This document shows, piece by piece, positions 11,167 through 15,163 of a DNA stretch of 64,000 nt. Position numbers and translations under genes: made by a program. This DNA comes from Comamonadaceae bacterium (GTDB lineage: Bacteria; Pseudomonadota; Gammaproteobacteria; Burkholderiales; Burkholderiaceae_C): positions 28,551 to 92,550 of the forward strand of contig CANBWP010000009.1 of NCBI GenBank assembly GCA_947373185.1, in the 5' to 3' direction. The stretch's first letter is position 1; each line of letters begins with the position of its first letter. Below the pieces are notes generated by a model. It was not told the DNA's origin. It saw only the letters and a program-made list of their open reading frames with translations, and made no database searches.

Positions 11167-12287
11167 GCGTGACGCCGCGCCAGCACCGCTTTGGACAAGG
11201 TCTCCAAGACCCTCTCACTGTCTGGCCAGCCAATGCACGCATCGGTGATGCTTTGGGCGTACTTCAAGGCACTGGGGTCGTCCTTGCCAGGCGTGAATTT
11301 CTGCGCACCGCCCTCTAGGTGACTCTCCACCATCACGCCAAAAATTTGACGTGAACCCTTGCTGATTTGTGCGGCAATGTCCTGGGTGACATTCACCTGG
11401 CGTTCGTGTTGTTTGCTGCTGTTGGCATGGCTGCAATCGATCATCAAGGTGGCGGGCAGTTTGGCTGCTGCCAAGTCTTGACAAGCCGCCGTGACACTGG
11501 CTTCGTCGTAATTGGGGGCTTTGCCGCCGCGCAAAATAACGTGGCAATCTGGATTGCCTTGCGTTTGCACAATGGCCACTTGGCCATTTTTGTGAACCGA
11601 CAAAAAGTGATGGCCGCGTTCAGCCGCTTGAATGGCATCGGTGGCAATTTTGATGTTGCCATCGGTGCCATTTTTGAAACCAATGGGCGCCGACAAACCG
11701 GAGGCCAATTCACGGTGAACCTGGCTTTCTGTGGTGCGCGCACCAATAGCGCCCCAGCTGATCAGGTCGCCGATGTATTGTGGCGAGATCACATCCAAAA
11801 ATTCGCTGCCTGCAGGCAAACCTTGGCGATTGATTTCAATCAACAATTGACGGGCAATGCGCAAGCCTTCGTCAATGCGAAAGCTCTCATCCAGGTACGG
11901 ATCATTGATCAGGCCTTTCCAGCCCACGGTGGTTCGAGGTTTCTCGAAATAAACCCGCATCACAATCTCCAAGGTGTCTTGGTACTTGTCGCGCAAAGGC
12001 TTCAGGCGACGTGCGTAATCCAAAGCGGCCACAGGGTCATGGATTGAACAAGGGCCAATGACCACCAACAAGCGGTCGTCTTTGCCCGCCATGATGTTGT
12101 GAATCTTGCGGCGCGTTTGCGAAATCAAACTCTCCACCGCGGTGCCCGTGATGGGGAAGAAACGCATCAAATGCTCGGGCGGCGGCAACACGGTGATGTC
12201 CTTGATGCGTTCGTCATCGGTCTGCCCTGTGCGCTCCAGCGGGTTGACATAGCGAGGCTCCGAGCTGGCTTTGGCTTTGGTGTTCAT
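11163..12287 (-). CDS. aroG: 3-deoxy-7-phosphoheptulonate synthase (class I, AroG type)
   Basis: LLVVIGPCSIHDPVAALDYARRL; MRVYFEKPRTTVGWKGLINDP; GAIGARTTESQVHRELASGLS. Confidence 0.94.
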   Translation of the reverse strand: MNTKAKASSEPRYVNPLERTGQTDDERIKDITVLPPPEHLMRFFPITGTAVESLISQTRRKIHNIMAGKDDRLLVVIGPCSIHDPVAALDYARRLKPLRDKYQDTLEIVMRVYFEKPRTTVGWKGLINDPYLDESFRIDEGLRIARQLLIEINRQGLPAGSEFLDVISPQYIGDLISWGAIGARTTESQVHRELASGLSAPIGFKNGTDGNIKIATDAIQAAERGHHFLSVHKNGQVAIVQTQGNPDCHVILRGGKAPNYDEASVTAACQDLAAAKLPATLMIDCSHANSSKQHERQVNVTQDIAAQISKGSRQIFGVMVESHLEGGAQKFTPGKDDPSALKYAQSITDACIGWPDSERVLETLSKAVLARRHA

Positions 12288-12317: not shown

Positions 12318-12352
12318 AAAAAAAAACCGCCGGGGGTTGAGTCCGGCGGTTG
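12318..12352 (-). terminator. Rho-independent terminator in the aroG leader (attenuator)
   Basis: Minus strand AACCGCCGG actcaacc CCCGGCGGTT followed by a T run, between leader ORF and aroG start. Confidence 0.85.
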
Positions 12353-12370
12353 GTAGAGGGGTTCAGTGAC

Positions 12371-12445
12371 TTATGCGCTGGCCTCTCGTCCGCCTAGGAC
12401 TGAGAATGCAAAATAAAAGCTAAAAAAGCTCAAGCGCGTGGTCAT
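12371..12445 (-). CDS. Putative Phe-rich leader peptide MTTRLSFFSFYFAFSVLGGREASA of the DAHP synthase attenuator
   Basis: 25-codon minus-strand ORF with 5 Phe and 1 Tyr in 8 residues, 18 nt upstream of a terminator that precedes aroG. Confidence 0.72.
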   Translation of the reverse strand: MTTRLSFFSFYFAFSVLGGREASA

Positions 12446-12507: not shown

Positions 12508-13968
12508 TCAAGCTGTGCCGCCCACCGTCAGGCCTTCAATGCGCAGTGTCGGCTGTCCTACGCCCACAGGCACACTTTGACCTTCTTTGCCACAGACGCC
12601 CACGCCTGAATCCAATCGCATGTCGTTGCCAATCATGCTGACTTGTTTCAGACATTCAGGGCCACTGCCCACCAAAGTGGCGCCCTTCACGGGGTATTGA
12701 ATCTTGCCGTTCTCCACCCAGTAAGCTTCACTGGCCGAGAACACGAACTTGCCGCTGGTGATGTCCACTTGGCCACCACCGAAGTTGGTGGCATACAGGC
12801 CTTTTTTGATGCTGGCCACAATTTCTTCGGGCGCTTTGTCGCCGCCCAACATGTAGGTGTTGGTCATGCGGGGCATGGGAATGTGTGCATAACTTTCACG
12901 TCGGCCATTGCCCGTGGGTTTGACACCCATCAAACGTGCATTCATGGCATCTTGGATGTAGCCCTTCAAAATACCGTCTTCAATCAGCACATTGCGCTGG
13001 CTAGGGCAGCCTTCGTCGTCCACATTCAAAGAGCCTCGGCGGTCCGACAGCGTGCCATCGTCCAGCACCGTCACCCCTTTGGCGGCCACACGTTTGCCAA
13101 TCATGCCGCTGAAGGCGCTGGAGCCTTTGCGGTTGAAATCGCCTTCCAAACCGTGGCCGATGGCCTCGTGCAAGAGCACACCCGGCCAGCCAGAACCCAA
13201 CACCACGGTCATCACGCCAGCGGGTGCGGGGCGCGCATCCAAGTTGGTCAGCGCTGCATGCACGGCATCGTCCACATAGGCATTGATCATGGCATCGTCA
13301 AAATACGCCAAGCCAAATCGGCCGCCGCCGCCGCCACTGCCCACTTCGCGGCGACCCTTTTGTTCGGCAATCACCGTCACAGACAGGCGCACCAAGGGGC
13401 GCACATCGGCCGCCAAAGTGCCGTCGGCACGGGCCACCATGACCACGTCGTATTCACTGGCCAAACCTGCCATGACCTGGACCACTCGGGGGTCTTTGGC
13501 GCGGGCCAATTGCTCTACTTTCTCGAGCAACTGAACTTTGTCGGTGCTGTTCAGCGTCCCCATGGGATCGAGCGAAGGGTAGAGCGAACGAATACCGGCG
13601 ATCTTGCGAGCCGGTACTTTGGCTTTTTGGCTCTGATGGGCTTGTGCAATGGCGCGAACCGTTTGCGCAGCGTCCATCAAGGAGGCCTCAGAGATGTCAT
13701 CTGAATACGCAAAGGCTGTTTTTTCGCCGGCCACGGCACGCACACCCACGCCTTGGTCGATGCTGAAACTGCCGGTTTTGACAATGCCCTCTTCCAAACT
13801 CCATCCTTCAGCGCGGGTGTATTGAAAATACAAGTCGGCATCGTCGACTTTGTGCGCTTTGATGGCACTCAAGGCCTTGGCCAAATGGGTTTCGTCCAGG
13901 CCAAAAGGCTCGAGCAACAAGGACCTGGCCGTGGCCAAGCGTTCAAGGGTAGGTTCGCGTGAAATCAT
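12508..13968 (-). CDS. tldD: Metalloprotease TldD
   Basis: LLHEAIGHGLEGDFNRKGSSAFSG (HExxxH-type); start MISREPTLERL. Confidence 0.93.
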   Translation of the reverse strand: MISREPTLERLATARSLLLEPFGLDETHLAKALSAIKAHKVDDADLYFQYTRAEGWSLEEGIVKTGSFSIDQGVGVRAVAGEKTAFAYSDDISEASLMDAAQTVRAIAQAHQSQKAKVPARKIAGIRSLYPSLDPMGTLNSTDKVQLLEKVEQLARAKDPRVVQVMAGLASEYDVVMVARADGTLAADVRPLVRLSVTVIAEQKGRREVGSGGGGGRFGLAYFDDAMINAYVDDAVHAALTNLDARPAPAGVMTVVLGSGWPGVLLHEAIGHGLEGDFNRKGSSAFSGMIGKRVAAKGVTVLDDGTLSDRRGSLNVDDEGCPSQRNVLIEDGILKGYIQDAMNARLMGVKPTGNGRRESYAHIPMPRMTNTYMLGGDKAPEEIVASIKKGLYATNFGGGQVDITSGKFVFSASEAYWVENGKIQYPVKGATLVGSGPECLKQVSMIGNDMRLDSGVGVCGKEGQSVPVGVGQPTLRIEGLTVGGTA

Positions 13969-14005
13969 GGCCTGATTGTAGGCAAGCTCAGATGGCCCTG
14001 CAGGT

Positions 14006-15163
14006 TCAAGTCTGAACCAATCGTTTGGCCTTGGCAATCGACATCAAAATACCCAAACCCAAGCCCAGCGTCACCATGGCAGTGCCGCCATAACTGATGA
14101 AGGGCAAGGGCACCCCCACCACAGGCAAGATGCCGCTGACCATGCCCATGTTGACGAAGGCGTAGGTGAAGAAAATCATGCTGACACTGCCAGCCAGCAA
14201 GCGCGTGAAAAGGGTGGGCGCTTCGCGCGCAATGACCAAGCCCCTGAAGACCAAAAAGAAGAAGCCTGTGATGAGCAACAGCGTCCCCACCAAGCCAAAC
14301 TCCTCAGAGAAGGCCGCAAAAATAAAGTCGGTGGTTCGCTCGGGAATGAACTCCAAGTGGGTTTGCGTCCCCTGCATAAAGCCCTTGCCCCAGAACCCGC
14401 CAGAGCCGATGGCGATCATGCCCTGAATGATGTGAAAGCCCTTGCCCAGTGGGTCGCGTGCAGGGTCTAAAAGCGTGCAAACGCGCTGACGTTGGTACTC
14501 GTGCAAGAGCTTCCAATCGACGCCATCGGCACACAACTGAGACTCGAAAATGATCAACAACAAAATGCCCACCAAGCCGATGGCCACCGGCGGCACAATC
14601 AAGCGCCAGCTCAGACCCGCAAAAAACAACACCGCGGCACCCGTGCTCAAGACCAACAAAGCCGTGCCCAAATCGGGCTGCCGCATGATCAGACCGACCG
14701 GCACCACAAGCAGCAAAGCCGCCACCACAAAGTCGAGCGGCCGCAATTGACCTTCCCTTTTTTGAAACCACCAAGACAGCATCAAGGGCATGGCAATTTT
14801 CAAAATTTCGCTGGGCTGAATGACCACCCCCACATTGAGCCAACGCCGGGCGCCTTTCTTGGTGATGCCAAAAATGGCCACCGCGATCAGCAGCACGACG
14901 CCAAAGGTGTAAATGGGCACGGCCAGGCTCATCAACCTTTGGGGTGGAATTTGAGCCATGCCAAACATGATGACGGCTGCAATCATCATGTTGCGGCCAT
15001 GGTCGACAAAGCGCGTGCCATGGTCAAAGCCCGAGGAATACATGATCAGCATTCCCGCGCAGGCCAGCACAAAGACCGCGAAGGCCAAAGGGCCGTCAAA
15101 TCCTTCAAACAAGTAAAGGATGCGAGACGACAGGCTGGGTTTTTCGATCACGGGCGGCATGGG
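14006..15163 (-). CDS. rodA: Rod shape-determining protein RodA (SEDS family)
   Basis: SEDS motifs GARRWLNVG, PSEILKIA, FIPERTTDFIFAAFSEEFG, PFISYGGTAM. Confidence 0.94.
   Translation of the reverse strand, partial: PMPPVIEKPSLSSRILYLFEGFDGPLAFAVFVLACAGMLIMYSSGFDHGTRFVDHGRNMMIAAVIMFGMAQIPPQRLMSLAVPIYTFGVVLLIAVAIFGITKKGARRWLNVGVVIQPSEILKIAMPLMLSWWFQKREGQLRPLDFVVAALLLVVPVGLIMRQPDLGTALLVLSTGAAVLFFAGLSWRLIVPPVAIGLVGILLLIIFESQLCADGVDWKLLHEYQRQRVCTLLDPARDPLGKGFHIIQGMIAIGSGGFWGKGFMQGTQTHLEFIPERTTDFIFAAFSEEFGLVGTLLLITGFFFLVFRGLVIAREAPTLFTRLLAGSVSMIFFTYAFVNMGMVSGILPVVGVPLPFISYGGTAMVTLGLGLGILMSIAKAKRLVQT

Follow-up and report, generated by a model that had tools for sequence, protein, structure and literature searches.

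Very probably, the aroG gene of the window (the whole 64,000-nt stretch of DNA analysed here) is preceded by a ribosome-mediated transcription attenuator, which would set its expression by the supply of charged aromatic tRNAs. Read directly from the minus strand, a 24-aa Phe-rich ORF (12445-12371), a terminator hairpin with a T run (12351-12318) and aroG (12287-11163) follow one another. A sequence-only reading of this DNA had described the same order and proposed a Phe attenuator. The order is confirmed, and among 80 aroG relatives fetched with their organism names (mostly Comamonadaceae and neighbours), 72 loci share an aromatic-rich ORF of comparable length and the same terminator. That reading had also named lack of conservation in relatives as evidence against itself; the ORF frame, the Phe codons and the hairpins are in fact kept there, and sequence comparison shows the order of the elements, the other aromatic codons, the alternative pairings and the gene context to be conserved with them.

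Leader, promoter and downstream gene

The leader, MTTRLSFFSFYFAFSVLGGREASA, opens with the ATG at 12445 (minus strand) and its stop codon ends at 12371; the putative control codons are F7, F8, F10, Y11, F12, and F14. Homologous aromatic-rich ORFs are found in relatives, other families included. The aromatic fraction is 0.295 in frame 0, vs. 0.12 and 0.10 in the other two frames. Phe codons vary synonymously (TTT 330, TTC 179), as do Tyr codons (TAT 92, TAC 112), and the C termini of the peptides are variable and frame-shifted among relatives. No Pfam or NCBIfam profile matched the leader peptide, peptides this short being hard to detect.

An extended -10 promoter element, TGTGC-TACATT (TGTGCTACATT; 12464-12454, minus strand), lies 8 nt ahead of the leader ATG. 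It had been picked out as a -10-like sequence earlier, and conservation bears this out: its TG and TA..T positions are kept in 69-71 of 73 Comamonadaceae-type sequences, and in about 70 of the 73 the hexamer ends 6-9 nt ahead of the ATG. Of the 54 other leaders, 25 have a TANNNT ending 5-10 nt ahead of the start; some families (f32, f20) show no evident element of this kind. A simple promoter scan detected neither a full sigma-70 site nor a conserved -35. A Shine-Dalgarno sequence is absent from the window's leader, again as first noted. Because the spacing between -10 and ATG is fixed, the 5′ end of the transcript probably coincides with the leader AUG or adjoins it, so that the ORF would be leaderless. 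This favors the near-leaderless start suggested before; the leader would be an added likely case of leaderless translation in which the geometry of the start matters for regulation. The aroR-aroF transcript of Corynebacterium glutamicum is reportedly leaderless.

The downstream gene (12287-11163, minus strand) encodes a class I DAHP synthase of 374 aa (PF00793, E = 2e-96), with an AGGAG ahead of its ATG at 12287. Between the T run and aroG there are 31 nt in the window (median 43 among relatives), leaving little room for a separate aroG promoter. This aroG is the only DAHP synthase found in the window's genome: there is one match to aroG, no type II enzyme was found, and the other PF00793 match lies between pyrG and eno, which makes it kdsA. 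With a single DAHP synthase, that genome would have all its flow into the pathway under this switch. In most of the Comamonadaceae sampled there is a second aroG paralogue, before which no leader was detected. The data do not bear out a link between sensing of three amino acids and possession of a single DAHP synthase, an idea also considered: two aroG genes are usual in Comamonadaceae whose leader contains Trp, and the window's genome combines a single aroG with a Trp-less leader. In three loci of one family (L099, L107, and L111; f23), one attenuator precedes a tandem pair of DAHP synthase genes.

Alternative pairings and the calculated switch

Four pairing regions can be recognized on the minus strand. 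Region 1, UUCUC-A-GUCC (12406-12397, codons 14-17), is the partner of region 2, GGCGG-AC-GAGAGG (12394-12382), which can pair instead with region 3, CCUCU-ACCAA-CCGCCGG (12359-12343). Region 3 is at once the antiterminator partner of region 2 and the left arm of the terminator; region 4, CCGGCGG (12333-12327), is the right arm. Helix 1:2 is formed by UUCUC and GAGAG, the 2:3 antiterminator by GGCGG and AGAGG with CCGCC and CCUCU, and 3:4 is the terminator, 5′-AACCGCCGG-actcaaccc-CCGGCGGTT with its T run, from 12351 to 12318; nine U (12326-12318) follow the stem. The stability of the leader RNA exceeds that of 200 of 200 dinucleotide shuffles (z = -4.1).

Compensatory changes support two of the helices. 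For 1:2, 92.7% of cells are paired and double changes occur at four of the five pairs; for 3:4, double changes from A-U to G-C are found at two pairs (60/8 and 37/27 sequences). When partners were swapped between species (116 sequences), native pairing was stronger in all three helices (z = -6.6 for 1:2, -9.5 for 2:3, and -11.9 for 3:4), and none of 3000 permutations reached the native strength of 1:2, 2:3, or 3:4; the relatedness of the sequences is uncorrected in these statistics. The outer arm of 2:3, a conserved pairing of AGAGG (12386-12382) with CCUCU (12359-12355), also exceeds its swapped partners when taken alone (z = -6.0). A two-base extension of 2:3 is found in 58 of 104 sequences, against 40.8 expected (maximum 50 in 1000 swaps), and the base ahead of the region 2 GGCGG tends to co-vary with region 3 (C with G, U with A). 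A column-wise count of 2:3 pairs on a MAFFT alignment was not above shuffles, because the CCUCU arm floats in its spacing; support for 2:3 therefore comes from the alignment-free pairing tests. The GGCGG of region 2 occurs in all three reading frames across lineages, which argues that it is kept as RNA and not as peptide.

On these compensatory changes and native-over-swapped comparisons, the leader RNA has the anatomy of a classical four-region attenuator: control codons for amino acids made by the pathway sit in a short ORF upstream of a biosynthetic gene, with a predicted intrinsic terminator between the two and mutually exclusive 1:2, 2:3, and 3:4 helices. The attenuation logic proposed at the outset thus holds up, with a conserved antiterminator that is in part a different helix. 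In the window, the pairing first suggested (GUCC-UA-GGCGG with CCGCCGGAC) is able to form; its GUCC/GGAC half, however, is not conserved: as an extension of the antiterminator it is found in 6 of 104 relatives, the same as the swapped-partner level, and in the window's own fold GUCC pairs inside 1:2. An Rfam covariance-model scan of the leader matched no leader family (Phe_leader, Trp_leader, or others) at E up to 1, giving chance matches only; the covariance model built here describes a family that Rfam lacks.

The effect of a stalled ribosome was calculated by folding, for each A-site codon, the RNA that runs from downstream of the ribosome footprint through region 3. For the window, the predicted probability that region 3 is sequestered is 0.98-1.0 at A-site codons 2-14, falling to 0.18 at codon 15, 0.03 at the stop codon and 0.07 without a ribosome. 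The calculated edge of the switch is therefore codon 14 (F14), the last aromatic codon of this leader; the edge shifts by about one codon over footprints of 12-17 nt. Over 116 leaders, mean sequestration is 0.94 at aromatic codons, 0.20 at the stop, and 0.44 without a ribosome; 97% of aromatic codons are permissive, vs. 60% of all codons, and in 73 of the 116 the last aromatic codon is the last permissive one or the one before. By this calculation, a ribosome stalled at the control codons would cover region 1 and free region 2. The model shows the aromatic run to sit in the right window of positions; codons before the run are also permissive, so the run is not uniquely special. At equilibrium, the terminator is favored even with a stalled ribosome (-28.5 kcal/mol for the full RNA, vs. 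-16.6 for the antiterminator before region 4), so that the switch must be kinetic, chosen while RNA polymerase moves, as in known attenuators.

The proposed sequence of events is then as follows. Transcription would begin from the leader AUG or within a few bases of it, and the leaderless ORF would be translated as the RNA emerges. A shortage of Phe-tRNA or Tyr-tRNA (in most relatives, Trp-tRNA as well) would stall the ribosome in the aromatic run, covering region 1; region 2 could then pair with region 3 before region 4 is made, and RNA polymerase would proceed into aroG. With enough charged tRNAs, the ribosome would reach the stop codon and cover region 2, and the 3:4 terminator would end transcription. 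Without translation, 1:2 would form, and with it the terminator.

Sensed amino acids, alternatives and known systems

Phe is present in all 117 leaders examined, and is their commonest residue; Tyr is found in 111 and Trp in 83 (57 of 63 Comamonadaceae-type leaders, 26 of 54 others). Of the 16 leaders without the usual W-F-S, 10 retain Trp elsewhere or in slightly altered context, which suggests selection for the residue. Trp is missing from the window's leader and from five other Comamonadaceae-type leaders; the window, L001, and L002 (the Limnohabitans clade) have YFAFS and no Trp. The Phe signal first proposed stands insofar as every leader has Phe codons, and is probably too narrow as a signal of Phe alone, since the family carries Tyr and often Trp codons as well. 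Inferring the sensed tRNAs from the codons, we take the signal of the family to be probably aromatic (Phe, Tyr, and often Trp) and not Phe alone; in the window's clade, which has no Trp, we take it to be Phe and Tyr.

A more restricted reading, in which the attenuator responds to Phe only and the Tyr and Trp codons are incidental, is tentative, if a good deal more than negligible. It would account for the universal Phe codons and for the Comamonadaceae-type leaders without Trp, and has a precedent in C. glutamicum aroR, where availability of Phe but not of Tyr is reported to affect transcription (PMC11802643), a warning for any mixed-aromatic reading. Against it are the frequency of Tyr and Trp, and the retention of Trp where W-F-S is not.

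It is quite unlikely that the leader instead forms a separate unit, a small gene or small RNA that has its own terminator and acts in trans, and that aroG is under some other control. The leaderless trpL of Sinorhizobium meliloti does work in trans, as both RNA and peptide (PMC7298713); here, however, a second promoter before aroG would have little room, aroG is downstream throughout, the conserved 2:3 pairing is needed by attenuation only, and the peptide C termini vary. A role in trans in addition to attenuation is possible. That the terminator merely stops read-through from tldD (12508-14037, minus strand; PmbA/TldD domains), which ends 63 nt upstream of the leader ATG on the same strand, with the Phe-rich ORF a product of chance, can be dismissed: the promoter element between tldD and the ORF is conserved, and conservation of the ORF frame and alternative pairings across many families already contradicts it.

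An aromatic attenuator before aroG, the preferred reading, has several partial parallels. It shares the four-region logic and the control codons adjoining region 1 with the enterobacterial pheA (pheL) and trp (trpL) attenuators, but precedes aroG, has mixed aromatic codons, and lacks both a Shine-Dalgarno sequence and an Rfam match. In E. coli, aroG is controlled by TyrR instead. Leaders that sense more than one amino acid are known from the ilvGMEDA and thr attenuators, with branched-chain or Thr/Ile codons. For DAHP synthase genes, an attenuator has been reported in C. glutamicum, and others have been proposed in Acholeplasma and for E. coli aroF. The closest known system is C. glutamicum aroR-aroF, in which a Phe-Tyr-Phe leader precedes a DAHP synthase gene whose transcription rises under Phe limitation (Neshat et al. 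2014, as cited in PMC11802643; leader also in PMC4046766). It is actinobacterial, with no Trp mentioned, while the proteobacterial element has its own GGCGG/CCGCC; the two are likened by description, not by sequence. The S. meliloti trpL-trpE(G) transcript likewise starts at the leader AUG, but that leader has Trp codons only and regulates trpE(G) (PMC7298713). The uORFC-13-1 motif before Acholeplasma aroF also combines a uORF containing a Phe codon with a terminator, but belongs to another phylum, has a ribosome-binding site and a different structure, and is represented by 24 sequences only (PMC8632094).

No aroG attenuator in beta- or alphaproteobacteria was found in the open literature, a scope that leaves out Vitreschak (2004) and Lopatovskaya (2010). 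The mechanism is classical, and within that scope the well-supported betaproteobacterial aroG example is apparently new. Control of entry into the aromatic pathway is little described in betaproteobacteria, and the element offers a concrete candidate RNA switch. Should the Trp, Tyr, and Phe codons all act as signals, a single leader on one enzyme would do the work for which E. coli uses three isozymes and two repressors. In Ralstonia, deletion of one aroG raises the other 10-20-fold, which is unexplained (PMC6379268); the attenuator may be the reason.

Distribution and descent

The element precedes aroG in Comamonas, Variovorax, Acidovorax, Polaromonas, Hydrogenophaga, Limnohabitans, and many others, and reaches far beyond Comamonadaceae. 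In the 72 loci the terminator, ACCGCCG..CGGCGGU-U(n), is mostly 20-42 nt past the leader ORF. Among the eight exceptions, one has the ORF but no terminator that could be found (L015) and one has almost no upstream DNA (L029). The other six have no element: the Cupriavidus chromosome-2 aroG genes (L075, L076) and several from Polynucleobacter (L066-L069) are without a leader despite close relatives that bear one, and, nested in a leader-bearing clade, look like losses.

The order was sampled with 399 genomes from 158 genera: one covariance model (R1) detected the element in 97 of them (54 genera), and another, built on a wider set (R2), gave full-length matches at E ≤ 1e-7 in about 104. In the window's genome, neither gave a credible second copy, the weak matches being mostly generic terminators. 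Of 98 matches opened outside that genome, 92 have aroG downstream, 55-84% identical to the window's; the remaining six comprise two Leu-rich leaders upstream of leuA, a weak aromatic leader from a Neisseriaceae-like genome, and three matches that are partial and cover the terminator only.

Outside the order, matches also occur in f63 and f68, two further families of the same class, and in four from other classes of the phylum (f251, f255, f258, f262), all of them before aroG; MITVATSYFWYFSYDSSLAAGGSRSI is an example of these leaders. In a tree built from 73 AroG proteins, midpoint-rooted and without leader-free AroG from those classes, these sequences form one supported group beside the betaproteobacterial family f4, and some of their leaders share a ..RSI* end with f4 leaders. 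This fits transfer of aroG together with its attenuator. The broadest proposition, of a widespread, undescribed leaderless-ORF attenuator that integrates charging of Phe, Tyr, and Trp tRNAs on the first enzyme of the common pathway, is old in betaproteobacteria, and was carried with aroG into other proteobacterial classes, could about equally well prove right or wrong.

A contig labeled Verrucomicrobiota (L080, a Terrimicrobiaceae MAG) has a betaproteobacterial-type aroG and leader, and is probably misbinned. The aroG and leader of a Solimonas sp. (L054) group with Comamonadaceae, apart from the other out-of-order matches, reflecting either a separate transfer or a misassigned genome.

The two Leu-rich matches (L169, L170; family f22) have a leader ORF (MFSIRQSVLLLLANDPTGPALEHVC in L169) and a GC terminator before an acetyltransferase-like gene and leuA; here the aroG model has detected a leucine attenuator. 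In the Neisseriaceae-like genome (L171, about 1210-1380; E = 4.7e-4), an aromatic-rich ORF, MQIRSVAYFYWYRTKVRYLFASA, and a terminator precede a gene other than aroG.
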